Source of the DNA: Bacteroidota bacterium
Lineage (GTDB): Bacteria; Bacteroidota; Bacteroidia; UKL13-3
Direction: 5' to 3'
DNA: 64,000 bases
Assembly (NCBI GenBank): GCA_947477885.1
Contig: CANJUD010000006.1
Location: 1-64,000, forward strand
Positions 11,787-58,146 of this stretch are shown here, in pieces. The notes beneath the pieces are model-generated. The model did no database searches. It was not told where the DNA came from and was given only the letters and a program-made list of their open reading frames with translations. Position numbers and translations under genes: made by a program. Numbering within the stretch: position 1 is the stretch's first letter; the number at the start of each line of letters is the position of its first letter.

Positions 11787-11814
11787 TTTACGATTGCGGA
11801 TTTACGATTTACGA
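11787..11814 (+). repeat. Heptamer array (left end of putative cassette)
   Basis: TTTACGA TTGCGGA TTTACGA TTTACGA, starting at the base after the TAA of the ABC permease. Confidence 0.75.
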
Positions 11815-11818
11815 TTTT

Positions 11819-12362
11819 GCTGACGCCAGCTATATACACTGCCTGTGGTTGTGTCTTGTGACCAACCACCTGATGTACACTTTATTTTTGAAGTTTGCTG
11901 ACGCTAGCTATATACACTGCCTGTGGTTGTGTCTTGTGACCAACCACCTGGTGTACACTTTATTTTTGAAGTTTGCTGACGCCAGCTATATACACTGCCT
12001 GTGGTTGTGTCTTGTGACCAACCACCTGATGTACACTTTATTTTTGAAGTTTGCTGACGCCAGCTATATACACTGCCTGTGGTTGTGTCTTGTGACCAAC
12101 CACCTGGTGTACACTTTATTTTTGAAGTTTGCTGACGCCAGCTATATACACTGCCTGTGGTTGTGTCTTGTGACCAACCACCTGGTGTACACATTCATTT
12201 TTGAAGTTTGTTTACGCCAGCTATATACACTGCCTGTGGTTGTGTCTTGTGACCAACCACCTGATGTACACTTTATTTTTGAAGTTCTGCCTTTGGTTGG
12301 TGTTTTCACCGACCAAAAGAACCACCTGGTGTACACTTTATTTTTGAAGTTTGCTGACGCTT
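11819..12362. repeat. 78-bp direct tandem repeat array, about 7 copies, each with a hairpin
   Basis: Units start at 11819, 11897, 11975, 12053, 12131, 12210 (78, 78, 78, 78, 79 bp), then a divergent copy 12287-12352 and a partial copy at 12353; each contains GTGGTTGTGTCTTGTGACCAACCAC. Confidence 0.97.
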
Positions 12363-12383
12363 GATTATATAATCGACGAAATA

Positions 12384-12662
12384 CTACATTACATGATCTA
12401 AGATAAAGAAAAATAAAAACTGTAAAAGTATTATAGAAATCAGAATATCTAAAATGGCAACTAGAATATAAAATAGTCCAACAACTCCTTTGGGTAAATT
12501 TTTATAAATATAAACAATGAATGATGCTGATATAATTAATAGCAATATATCTAGTACAAAATAACTATTGCTCTTAATTGGGTAAAAATCAAGAAAAATA
12601 CATAATAGTGCAATATAAACAATGTTTAATGATAGAAATATAAATGAGTTCTTATTATTCAT
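12384..12662 (-). CDS. Small multi-pass membrane protein
   Basis: 92 aa, mostly hydrophobic; overlaps the upstream antitoxin-like ORF by 8 bp. Confidence 0.6.
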   Translation of the reverse strand: MNNKNSFIFLSLNIVYIALLCIFLDFYPIKSNSYFVLDILLLIISASFIVYIYKNLPKGVVGLFYILVAILDILISIILLQFLFFFILDHVM

Positions 12663-12909
12663 TATTATTACTTTCTAATATATATCGCTTCATCTTTTCC
12701 TCCGACACCTCCCTTGTGATATAAGTCTCCTGTCCTTCTGCCAAACGACTGTCCAATGTTGCTTTTTGCTCATCAGTCAGTTCGTACGCGTCTCCAGAAT
12801 CCTCTTCAACTATAATGGTAATGGGCTTGGATTTGAAGGTTGCCTTAATAGCATCAAGCAATTCATTATTAACATCTTGAGCTGAAGCTAAATGATAAGT
12901 GGAGTGCAT
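12655..12909 (-). CDS. Antitoxin-like small acidic protein
   Basis: 84 aa MHSTYHLASAQDVNNELLDAIKATFKSKPITIIVEED...; resembles small Bacteroidota antitoxins by eye. Confidence 0.55.
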   Translation of the reverse strand: MHSTYHLASAQDVNNELLDAIKATFKSKPITIIVEEDSGDAYELTDEQKATLDSRLAEGQETYITREVSEEKMKRYILESNNNE

Positions 12910-12958
12910 CGGTTTTTATTTATAGATTTCTATTGCAAATATATTATCATTCCAATCA

Positions 12959-12998
12959 GGCGTCAGCCAAATCGTACATCGTACATCGTAAATCGTAC
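12959..12998 (-). repeat. Heptamer array plus GGCTGACGCC, inverted relative to 11801-11826
   Basis: GGCGTCAGCC AA ATCGTAC ATCGTAC ATCGTAA ATCGTAC. Confidence 0.75.
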
Positions 12999-13086
12999 AT
13001 ACATAACGCATTGTATTTTGTGCAAAAACTGTATGTAACGCCACCAATTGCTTCGCTAATTTCGCATAACATTTATAAATTAGACC

Positions 13087-24170: not shown

Positions 24171-24253
24171 AGTATCAAGTAGCTAGTATCAAGTAGCTAG
24201 TATCAAGTATCAAGTATCAAGTATCAAGTATCAAGTACCAGCTACTTGATACC
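24171..24253. repeat. Heptamer array AGTATCA (10 units) with an inverted GCTACTTGATACC end
   Basis: AGTATCA AGTAGCT AGTATCA AGTAGCT (AGTATCA)5 AGTACCA GCTACTTGATACC. Confidence 0.9.
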
Positions 24254-53568: not shown

Positions 53569-53874
53569 TTAATTTATTGGTTTGCTCAAGTCATATAATA
53601 CATCAGGGCAAAAGTCTAATGGGCAAGGTTCTTCATGACCATCGGGGTATTTGATTTTCATGCCATTTTCCCAGAGCAAAGTATAACCATCAGTTTTTAC
53701 CTGTTTAAATCTATTAAAATCCGATAACTGGTTACAAACATCATTAGGATGTTGAGCCCATTCTGATAATTTTTCTTTAAATGGTATAATTCGAATTTCA
53801 CCAGTATTCCAATTACAGACCACAGAAAAATCTGGACGAACTTCAATAATATTTGTAATTCTAGGTAAATTCAT
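53569..53874 (-). CDS. DUF2442-like protein
   Basis: 101 aa; overlaps the DUF4160-like gene by 4 bp; NTGEIRIIPFKEKLSEW. Confidence 0.7.
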   Translation of the reverse strand: MNLPRITNIIEVRPDFSVVCNWNTGEIRIIPFKEKLSEWAQHPNDVCNQLSDFNRFKQVKTDGYTLLWENGMKIKYPDGHEEPCPLDFCPDVLYDLSKPIN

Positions 53875-54134
53875 TTTAGAGGGTCAATTTTTAAAAAATC
53901 TGGATTGTCTTTTTGTGATTCTTCAAAATTACGAATAAGTTCTTCTTTATGCAAGTTTGCCCACTCCATAACTAATTTTAAAGCCCTATTTGATAAATTA
54001 CCTTTAATTATTTCTCCGTTATTGATGTTTATCATTGCTTCATCATCAGCGTAACGGGCATGAAAATGCGGTGGCAAATGATCGCCTTTATACATGCATA
54101 TAACTATTCCAAAAAATCGACTTATCTCTGGCAT
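53871..54134 (-). CDS. DUF4160-like protein
   Basis: [45 protein letters not shown]. Confidence 0.9.
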   Translation of the reverse strand: MPEISRFFGIVICMYKGDHLPPHFHARYADDEAMININNGEIIKGNLSNRALKLVMEWANLHKEELIRNFEESQKDNPDFLKIDPLK

Positions 54135-56047
54135 TATTTGTAACTCCTTACCTGTAACTTGATATTTTCAAACGTGAGGTCCTCTCTATGCATAGTTGGT
54201 TCTGCGTCCATACCTTTATACTCCCAAGCTGCCACATAAGCATACTTCTCATCATTCCGTTTGGCTTCGCCGGCGTCTTGGTATTCTAATCTGAAATGGC
54301 CGCCACAACTTTCGTTTCTATTCAGTGCATCCACTATCATAAGTTCGCCCAATTCAATAAAGTCGGCTACACGAAGTGCTTTTTCTAAGTCGGGATTTAT
54401 TTCTTCATTGGTTCCAGATACTTTCACATCTTTCCAAAATTCTTCTCTCAATTCTTTCACCATCACACGTGCTTTTGTTAATCCTTCTGCCGTGCGAGCC
54501 ATACCACAATAATCCCACATTATTTTTCCGAGTTTTTTGTGGAAGTCATCAACTGTTTGTGTACCTTTTATTGATAATAGTTTTTCAATTCTTTCTTTTG
54601 CGTTATTCGCTGCTGCTTCAAATTCTGGATGTGAAGTTTCTATAGCTTTGGTGAATATTTCATCAGCCAAATAATTTCCAATGGTATAAGGTAATACAAA
54701 ATATCCATCGGCCAAACCCTGCATCAATGCTGATGCTCCGAGGCGGTTTGCACCGTGGTCGCTGAAATTACATTCGCCCATTGCATATAGTCCTGGCACG
54801 GTGGTCATCAAATCATAATCGACCCAAAGGCCGCCCATTGTATAATGCACAGCTGGATAAATTCTCATTGGAGTTTCATATGGATCTTCACCAGTTATAT
54901 GATGATACATATCGAACAAATTTCCATAACGAGCTGCTACTACTTCTTTTCCCAAACGATTTATTGCATCGGCAAAATCTAAATATACAGCTAAACCTGA
55001 TTCGCCAACACCTCTTCCATCATCACATGCCTCTTTAGCCGCACGACTGGCAATATCACGCGGGGCAAGGTTTCCAAAGGATGGATATTTACGTTCCAAA
55101 TAATAATCACGATCTTCTTCTGCAATATCTTGTGGCTTCTTTTTACAGTCTTCTACTTTTTTGGGAACCCAAACGCGTCCGTCATTTCTCAACGACTCAC
55201 TCATCAATGTTAATTTCGATTGGTAGTCTCCGCTTACAGGAATGCAGGTAGGGTGAATTTGTGTATAACAAGGATTTCCAAAAAAAGCTCCTTCTTTATG
55301 AGCTTTCCACGCTGCAGTTACGTTGCAGCCCATGGCATTGGTGCTTAAGAAAAATACATTTCCATATCCGCCAGTTGCTAGAACCACAGCATGTCCGAAA
55401 TGTTTTTCCAATTCGCCCGTTATCATATTTCTTGCTATAATACCTCTTGCTTTTCCGTCAATCTTCACCACTTCAAGCATCTCGTGGCGGTTATGTTCTT
55501 TCACATTTCCAAGTCCAACTTGACGCATCATTGCTGAGTAAGCACCCAATAATAATTGTTGTCCGGTTTGTCCGCGTGCATAAAATGTACGACTAACCTG
55601 AGCACCACCAAACGAGCGGTTATCTAATAGTCCGCCATATTCACGTGCAAAGGGAACACCTTGTGCTACGCATTGGTCTATAATACTTGCACTCACTTCG
55701 GCAAGGCGATATACATTGGCTTCACGGGCACGGAAGTCGCCGCCTTTAATAGTATCATAGAATAATCTATATACCGAGTCGCCATCATTCTTATAGTTTT
55801 TGGCAGCATTAATTCCACCTTGGGCAGCAATACTGTGGGCCCGGCGGGCACTATCTTGGTAACAAAAAGTTTTCACAGAATAACCCAACTCAGCAAGAGA
55901 AGCCGCAGCAGAAGCACCAGCCAAGCCAGTACCCACCACTATAATTTCGAGTTTTCTTTTATTCGCGGGGTTCACAAGTTTAACATGGGACTTGTAATCT
56001 TCCCATTTCTTTTCTAATGGGCCTTCTGGTATTTTTGAATTTAACAT
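54134..56047 (-). CDS. sdhA: Succinate dehydrogenase/fumarate reductase flavoprotein subunit
   Basis: [76 protein letters not shown]. Confidence 0.96.
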
Positions 56048-56052
56048 ATTGG

Positions 56053-56137
56053 TATATAGTATAAAGTATAAGGTATAAAGTAGAGATTGTTAGTTGTTAC
56101 TTTTTTTAGATTAAAGATTAAAGACAAAAGACAAAAA
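56053..56137. repeat. Two adjacent heptamer arrays at left border of S23-like cassette
   Basis: TATATAG TATAAAG TATAAGG TATAAAG, then AGATTAA AGATTAA AGACAAA AGACAAA. Confidence 0.85.
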
Positions 56138-56145
56138 AATTTCGA

Positions 56146-56499
56146 TCAGGGGTTTATTTTTTTCATGAAGGAGAAAATCATTTTTTGTTGCTCGATACAC
56201 TGATTTTTTAGTGAATTGAAAGACTCGTCGTTTAATATTTTAATTTTGTTGGCGATGATAAGTTGCGATTCTAGTTCATAGCTTGAGCCTAATGAAATTG
56301 ATAGAAAATATGCCATCTCCTTCTCAGATTTTCTTGAACATCCTTCAGCAATTTGAGAAGGTATTGATACTGCAGCACGCGTAATTTGGCTGGTTAGCCC
56401 ATATCGCTCATTGGCAGGGAATGACTCAACAGATTGATACACGCTAGTAGCCAAATCAATTCCATTTTGCCATATTTTCAACTCCCTAAAATTATGCAT
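56146..56499 (-). CDS. Four-helix-bundle protein (S23/23S rRNA intervening-sequence family)
   Basis: FRELKIWQNGIDLATSVYQSVESFPANERYGLTSQITRAAVSIPSQIAEGCSRKSEKEMAYFLSISLGSSYELESQL. Confidence 0.95.
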   Translation of the reverse strand: MHNFRELKIWQNGIDLATSVYQSVESFPANERYGLTSQITRAAVSIPSQIAEGCSRKSEKEMAYFLSISLGSSYELESQLIIANKIKILNDESFNSLKNQCIEQQKMIFSFMKKINP

Positions 56500-56507
56500 A
56501 TCCTCTT

Positions 56508-56542
56508 TATTGTCTATTGTCTTTCGTCTTTTATCTTTCTGC
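56508..56542. repeat. Heptamer array at right border of S23-like cassette
   Basis: TATTGTC TATTGTC TTTCGTC TTTTATC TTTCTGC, 2 bp before the sdhC stop codon. Confidence 0.85.
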
Positions 56543-56544
56543 TA

Positions 56545-57501
56545 CTAAAAGAATCGTGTCCAATCCAAAACTCCATCATTCTTCATATAATCCAACAAAA
56601 AATAAATCGGCATCGCTGCAAATCCTGCTGGGATAGCTATTGAGAAAAACCATCCTATAGCTTTAATTATAGGAACATATTTTCTGTGGTGAACCCCGAT
56701 ACTTTGCCAGGCAGATTGGAAACCGTGCACTAAGTGGTAGGAGAGGGCAAGCAATGAAATAAGATAAAATATAACATACCAAGGTTGTTGGAAAGCCAAT
56801 TTTACTTCCATGTATAAATCTTTTACAGCTTCAGTTTTTATAGGTTCTGGGCCAATATAGGTTGAGCTGAAGGTAGTGAATTCCATTTGAAGTTGTTGCA
56901 TTAGGCCTGGGTTTTCAGCCTGAAGTTTTTGCATCATTTCACGATTTGTCAAATCAATCCCCTTACGTTTTAATTTTTCGATAAAGATACTTTCTGCATT
57001 ATACATTTTGTAGTAGGATTCGGCACTGTCTTTACCATAAAAAATATGGTTTTCTCCTTCGTACTTGATGGTATAATAGTTTTTATATTTCACTTCGCCG
57101 AACTTGTATTCAGCCCAAAAATCGGCAAAATGTATAACAAGAAAAACTAAGAGAATAGAGCCCAAAATGCCCATATTGCGGCTGCTCCAAGTACTGCTCT
57201 TTTCAGGTTTGTTGTGCACATATCCTTGTGGTCGGGCTGCACGGTTTTGCAAGGTGAGCACCAAGGATTGTATGATATGAATTAATATGGTAGCATATAA
57301 TAAGTATGATATAGTTTTGATGATAGGGTTGTGTATCATAAACACGCTATAGCTATTAAAAGCAAAACCTGCATCATCTTTAAACAATTGAAAATTGCCC
57401 GAAACGTGCACCACTAAAAAAAGGCACATGAACAAACCTGAGAGTGACATTACCCATTTGCGGCCTAGGCTGGAAGTAAAAGCTTTTGTAAACCAATTCA
57501 T
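56545..57501 (-). CDS. sdhC: Succinate dehydrogenase cytochrome b subunit
   Basis: 318 aa; WVMSLSGLFMCLFLVVHVSGNFQLF; SYHLVHGFQSAWQSIGVHHRKY. Confidence 0.92.
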   Translation of the reverse strand: MNWFTKAFTSSLGRKWVMSLSGLFMCLFLVVHVSGNFQLFKDDAGFAFNSYSVFMIHNPIIKTISYLLYATILIHIIQSLVLTLQNRAARPQGYVHNKPEKSSTWSSRNMGILGSILLVFLVIHFADFWAEYKFGEVKYKNYYTIKYEGENHIFYGKDSAESYYKMYNAESIFIEKLKRKGIDLTNREMMQKLQAENPGLMQQLQMEFTTFSSTYIGPEPIKTEAVKDLYMEVKLAFQQPWYVIFYLISLLALSYHLVHGFQSAWQSIGVHHRKYVPIIKAIGWFFSIAIPAGFAAMPIYFLLDYMKNDGVLDWTRFF

Positions 57502-57995: not shown

Positions 57996-58013
57996 TTAAG
58001 GTGCAAAAGTATG

Positions 58014-58124
58014 TACGATTTACGATTTACGATGTGGCTTACGCCCGATGTTGCCTGTGGTTGTGTCTTGCGACCAACCACAAGTGTATCATAAAGCCCC
58101 TGAATCCTGAATCCCGAATCCCGA
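58014..58124. repeat. Composite intergenic repeat: heptamers, GGCTTACGCC, hairpin, second heptamer array
   Basis: TACGATT TACGATT TACGATG TGGCTTACGCC; hairpin GTGGTTGTGTCTTGCGACCAACCAC at 58057-58081; TGAATCC TGAATCC CGAATCC CGAT. Confidence 0.85.
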
Positions 58125-58146
58125 TTTTTTTCCCTAATTTTGTAGC

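Follow-up and report, generated by a model that had tools for sequence, protein, structure and literature searches.

The window analysed here is a stretch of 64,000 nucleotides (positions 1 to 64,000 of contig CANJUD010000006.1, assembly GCA_947477885.1) from a bacterium of the Bacteroidota lineage UKL13-3, and it carries an sdh operon on its minus strand. The preliminary description read the operon as sdhC, a four-helix-bundle gene and sdhA, and the coordinates agree with this order: the upstream host gene sdhC (cytochrome b558 family) occupies 56545-57501, the gene of the S23 or four-helix-bundle family 56146-56499, and the downstream host gene sdhA 54134-56047. The whole insert between sdhC and sdhA measures 497 bp (56048-56544, minus strand), figures that are the limits of the gap, as the nearest empty sites are too diverged to fix exact boundaries. 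One open reading frame lies in the gap, in the same direction as the sdh operon, and its 117-aa product matches PF05635 (7.5e-37; 126 bits, curated Pfam cut-off 33.8) and TIGR02436, "four helix bundle protein" (120.6 bits, cut-off 24); solved relatives in this family are 2gsc (XCC0516) and 2rld. Among the open reading frames of the insert only S23 was found, with no transposase, reverse transcriptase or known nuclease encoded, and the insert lies outside any 23S rRNA gene.

The S23 gene is bracketed by two tandem arrays of 7-bp units. Read in the sense of S23, the 5' arm, between the sdhC stop and the S23 start (56504-56538, minus strand), is AGATAAA AGACGAA AGACAAT AGACAAT, and the 3' arm, after the S23 stop (56104-56139, minus strand), is the inverted TTTGTCT TTTGTCT TTAATCT TTAATCT; on the forward strand these appear as TATTGTC/TTTCGTC/TTTTATC on the sdhC side and as AGATTAA/AGACAAA on the sdhA side. 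The two arms match as inverted copies at 21/24 positions, as good a match occurring in 0/1000 shuffles (shuffle mean 15.2). Thus the heptamer-based inverted ends proposed in the preliminary description hold for the inner left array against the right array; they do not extend to the outer array of TATAAAG type beside the sdhA start (56049-56086, no strand assigned), which has no inverted partner opposite. The right array also ends about 6 bp from the sdhC stop, rather than the 2 bp first given. Strict 28-bp arrays occur five times in the window with period 7 and not at all with periods 5, 6 or 8-12. The predicted RNA of 56048-56544 folds better than shuffled sequences (-103.4 vs. -89.3 +/- 5.5 kcal/mol; z -2.6; 0/100 shuffles better), and in this predicted fold the two heptamer arms pair.

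Seven S23 loci are present in the genome from which the window derives (3.12 Mb in 25 contigs); the frame is open at five of them and contains a stop codon at two. All seven are flanked by inverted tandem 7-bp arrays, as an earlier suggestion to look at other S23 loci had anticipated, and the heptamer is particular to each locus (AGACAAA, CAGTAGT/CAGTAAA, AAGGAAT, TGGTTAA, ATACGAT, TTTACGA and AATTCTA). Arrays also occur often in this genome away from any S23 gene: of about 28 places of the TACGATN type, 2 are near S23. In samples of other genomes such arrays are rare. The density of arrays away from S23 increases with S23 copy number (Spearman 0.59, p 0.025), a correlation drawn from samples of 14 genomes that hold only 10 arrays in all. 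The window itself has solo intergenic arrays without S23 at 24185-24246, 58008-58035 and 58096-58128 (AGTATCA, TACGATT and TGAATCC). In addition, at 11790-13000 inverted TACGATT arrays with GCTGACGCC motifs surround several 78-bp tandem repeats (GTGACCAACCACCTG..) and two small open reading frames, with no S23. The solo TACGATN arrays of the genome (L207-L236) usually adjoin GCTGACGCCTGAT / ATCAGGCGTCAGC, an inner motif of this genome, and GCCATACGGCAG has a comparable role in CAGTAGT arrays of the genus.

S23 genes are present in 37/40 relatives, in up to 12 copies, and in total 189 S23 loci were scored for inverted arms, with a cut-off of at least 18/24. Inverted arms flank 65% of the 96 loci from the same class (the relatives together with the window's genome; cross-locus pairs, 6.7%), 75% of 76 from a set of eighty named loci collected by profile search, 94% of 17 loci from outside the Bacteroidota and 59% of 17 loci on plasmids. 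Control genes, taken from the window and the loci, reach 6-9%, and a quarter to two fifths of the S23 loci in the larger sets score under the cut-off. Self-similarity at lag 7 (16/21) is present upstream of S23 at 35% and downstream at 30% of the same 96 loci, with 1% in sequence further out, and lags of 5, 6 and 8-12 reach 0-5%, so that period 7 alone stands out. The records from outside the Bacteroidota, mostly metagenome-assembled genomes, are titled Planctomycetales, Marinamargulisbacteria, Cloacimonadota, Anaerolineae, Terriglobia, Clostridia, Bipolaricaulota, Ignavibacteria and others. Inverted arrays also occur at S23 genes of cyanobacterial plasmids and of one Gemmatimonadota plasmid, and the package of gene plus arrays is found in operons of at least 10 bacterial phyla. 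Among phage records no S23 was found. Of 120 loci whose arms are clear, 93% have a G-rich 5' arm and a C-rich 3' arm on the sense strand.

The preliminary description also proposed that the insert is a mobile cassette, and this is supported directly by insertion polymorphism on cyanobacterial plasmids, where flanks with and without the insert are about 91-98% identical. At one site, copies filled in Trichormus variabilis plasmid C (L275) and Scytonema (L282) and empty in Nostoc linckia (L278) and Microchaete (L279) share 97.5% identity; the filled copies read AAAAAGTAAT/AAATCAGAATTCAG...S23...TTCTTTG/TAAT/TAAC and the empty ones AAAAAGTAATTAAC. The direct repeat GTAAT at this insertion (L275/L278) is a clean target duplication of 4-5 bp and the sole clean case, duplication being unclear at the other sites. 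Nostoc C052 (L280) has at this site a decayed remnant made up of one array and the beginning of the gene. Within an operon of a Nostoc plasmid, L273, L288 and L292 carry the insert in one gap, which is empty in L284, L289, L290 and L291, and in L284 a different S23 insert with GGGAAAA heptamers sits in the next gap of the operon. Further sites without S23 are L277, L281 and L405-L408 (cmr2-cmr3, cas6-cas4 and an integrase operon). At a second plasmid site a 5-bp repeat, TTCTA, is ambiguous: arrays elsewhere contain these letters, so that it could belong to the array itself. In L283 the insert appears to have replaced the last codons of the upstream gene. On these plasmids S23 inserts also lie within CRISPR-Cas operons (cmr2-cmr3 and cas6-cas4; L269, L272 and L274).

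Related copies are likewise found at different sites. S23 proteins that are 79-83% identical, all with AGTCAGA heptamers, occupy three unrelated plasmid sites. In the window's genus, two species have a 90% identical S23 gene in two gaps that lie two genes from each other; where this gene is missing, what is left is either arrays by themselves or arrays plus 3' gene fragments. In L292 an S23 gene is split by approximately 190 bp of non-coding DNA bearing the same inverted heptamers, that is, by a gene-less copy. The sequence TTGA, considered as a target duplication of this gene-less insert, was withdrawn after comparison with intact genes.

Purifying selection acts on the S23 gene, dN/dS being near 0.1 for most pairs: values of 0.02-0.13 were obtained in 12/14 pairs with a computable value, and the remaining two, which are very close pairs, gave 0.23 and 0.86. 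With orientation called from the longest open frame, S23 is co-directional with both neighbours in 135/150 clear cases and antisense to both in 5/150. The median spacing is 63 bp from the upstream stop to S23 and 53 bp from S23 to the next start, and this sense orientation with short spacing is consistent with a promoterless element living on host read-through. The same strong sense bias, the occurrence in transcribed units and the parallel with rRNA could also favor movement at the RNA level, in which an excised RNA joins another transcript and a reverse transcriptase copies it back to DNA. Such a pathway concerns the mode of movement and not whether the unit is mobile, so that its probability overlaps that of the mobile-element reading, and it is a live rival for that mode, though a rather unlikely one: antisense copies exist (L267, in an nrd operon, and L268), the target duplication of 4-5 bp seen in one place points to staggered cutting of DNA, and selection for read-through could yield the same sense bias.

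The sdh operons of relatives bear on whether the unit moves at all. SdhA was located in 40 relatives and 30 sdh loci were fetched; among the loci where the sdhC-sdhA gap was in hand, S23 fills it only in the window's genus (G000 and G002; in a third member the sdh locus ends at a contig end, placing the gap outside the comparison). In the other genera read, including a relative with a 92% identical SdhA, the gap is short and free of S23, as expected of the empty sites that the preliminary description had suggested looking for. The two copies of the genus encode sister S23 proteins (tree support 0.94) with different heptamers, which indicates that the insertion is common to both species and that the arrays have altered since; within the genus, the sdhC-sdhA copy is an old insertion inherited by two species and not a recent one. 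Arrays at a fixed site can switch heptamer between sister species (L001/L014), and so are not a stable end sequence. In G002 a 276-aa open reading frame, FkbM-methyltransferase-like by eye, precedes the S23 gene in this gap (L038, 229-1059).

A copy shared by sister species is what would be expected if S23 and its RNA stem formed a stationary cassette that regulates, or is released from, the mRNA of the host operon, is not mobile itself, and spread by ordinary horizontal transfer and recombination. The sense orientation within operons, the predicted RNA stem and the precedent of the rRNA intervening sequences fit such a cassette too, but it is quite improbable, because different S23 lineages occupy one gap, near-identical units lie at unrelated sites without their neighbours, and a gene-less copy has inserted into S23 itself. 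The gap in question is that between sdhA and sdhB, whose S23 genes belong to at least three clades of the tree, pointing to insertion on more than one occasion; in three inserts where S23 is the sole occupant of this gap, the arms match at 20-21/24. Further recurrent sites of S23 are the methionine synthase region and, in several families, the gap between sufB and sufC (by eye from the flanks; L008, L018, L021 and L024).

The sdhA-sdhB gap also receives other small genes. In the window (53569-54134) it holds a gene for a DUF4160/DhiT-like toxin together with a small partner that by eye resembles DUF2442 and has no profile match, and the same pair occurs in G001 (L053); in G026 and G029 (L042 and L044) it is filled by pairs that are nucleotidyltransferase/HEPN-like by eye. 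Such neighbours, and the arrays that occur alone, might suggest that S23 is accessory cargo, a toxin-antitoxin or defence gene captured by chance by a separate mobile array repeat. This is very unlikely, since these pairs are without inverted arrays and since S23 recurs as the occupant in every phylum examined, with no constant partner gene. The possibility that the arrays are shared by other small inserted gene pairs was considered and rejected, as the sdhA-sdhB pairs score 14-15/24 and have no inverted arms.

That the arrays are ordinary slippage repeats of intergenic gaps, with S23 a normal operon gene beside them by chance, is highly improbable: slippage has been proposed for the heptameric repeats over-represented in many bacteria (PMC4692102), solo arrays exist and array copy number differs by 14 bp between L275 and L282, but slippage does not make paired inverted arrays that share a locus-specific heptamer and enclose members of a single gene family across many phyla, when controls stand at 6-9%, and the precise presence or absence of the gene and both arrays together, with clean empty sites that have neither, already contradicts it.

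Taken together, the insert is quite probably one copy of a widespread mobile element, here termed the S23 element, that has inverted heptamer-array ends and S23 as its sole gene; the mobility of the element is well supported. Weighing against this reading are the lack of an encoded transposase, reverse transcriptase or known nuclease, the single clean target duplication, the many arrays of this genome that stand apart from S23, the heptamer change at a fixed site and the S23 loci that score under the inverted-arm cut-off. An S23 element would measure approximately 0.45-0.6 kb and consist of inverted tandem heptamer arrays and a single gene, with a 7-bp sequence that varies by element lineage. 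The arrays may serve as terminal inverted repeats, and S23, a pentameric four-helix bundle in a solved relative, may bind the array as nucleic acid and be needed for mobility or upkeep. The catalytic step could be supplied in trans by a host or foreign enzyme. The element would be promoterless and transcribed from the host operon; in the transcript the arms would pair, and a cut of RNase III type, for which the 23S rRNA intervening sequence (IVS) is a precedent, could free the S23 part and let the host operon go on working.

The closest known system is the 23S rRNA IVS. In Coxiella this is a sequence of 428 nt with an S23 open reading frame, 28-bp inverted ends and variable-number tandem heptamers (GACAGAT) before the frame; excision by RNase III has been reported and the authors discuss possible mobility (PMC4990558). 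The same work describes a Xanthomonas S23 relative as a homopentamer (PMC4990558). The insert resembles the S23-bearing IVSs of Coxiella and Leptospira (PMC4990558) in its S23 frame, its inverted stem-forming ends and its similar size, but its host is a protein-coding operon, heptamers make up both of its arms, and S23 elements occupy many different sites with precise insertion polymorphism. The best reading is that the S23-bearing IVSs are related to the S23 element. We rate the element as set apart from the rRNA IVS by its location, and from insertion sequences by the absence of a transposase of its own, while working like an IVS; if the S23 IVS is counted as the same kind, the S23 element would be a variant of it.

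Heptameric repeats are over-represented in bacteria for reasons that are unsettled, and they are generally not tied to mobile elements (PMC4692102). Arrays of TAACTGA in Beggiatoaceae, Cyanobacteria and Bacteroidetes have been described without S23, a mobile repeat-binding protein being one speculation offered for them (PMC4679880). The heptanucleotide repeats of cyanobacteria, Xanthomonas and Beggiatoaceae (PMC4692102; PMC4679880) are also 7-bp tandem, intergenic, lineage-specific and occasionally in inverted pairs; they were reported there without S23 or a mobile element, whereas S23 genes of cyanobacterial plasmids have such repeats as inverted ends. Our literature search, which reached neither preprints nor most subscription papers, found no publication joining S23 to heptamer arrays outside rRNA. 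Like MITEs, REPINs and REP/RAYT systems, S23 elements are small dispersed inverted repeats in which gene-less copies stand beside gene-bearing ones; unlike them, their ends are variable tandem arrays and not a fixed palindrome, and they encode no RAYT-like (Y1) or DDE transposase. The Avd proteins of DGRs have a small helical-bundle fold, as does S23; searching PDB structures by profile matched no Avd chain and gave no sequence link between the two, and among the open reading frames listed within 1.5 kb of the other S23 loci of this genome no reverse transcriptase was noted.

A broader proposal, which we put forward tentatively as possible, is that S23 elements are mobile DNA of a class of their own. 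In it, recognition and upkeep of the inverted heptamer arrays would fall to the S23 pentamer itself, and the unit length of 7 bp would be dictated by the complex of protein and nucleic acid rather than by sequence. Bacterial heptamer repeats, the cyanobacterial short tandem repeats among them, might then largely be footprints of these elements, and the rRNA intervening sequences the same elements in rRNA. The small dispersed repeats of Nostoc and the cyanobacterial STRR sequences are candidates for such a link to S23.

S23 is a protein family with a solved structure, many relatives and no known function, and the finding links it to the over-representation of heptamers and to the origin of the rRNA IVS, which makes each of these three questions testable. 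The S23 element looks like an overlooked kind of mobile element, and could explain the abundance of 7-letter repeats in bacteria. If it is true that S23 elements move without a known recombinase, they would involve either a new chemistry of transposition or a host chemistry put to new use.
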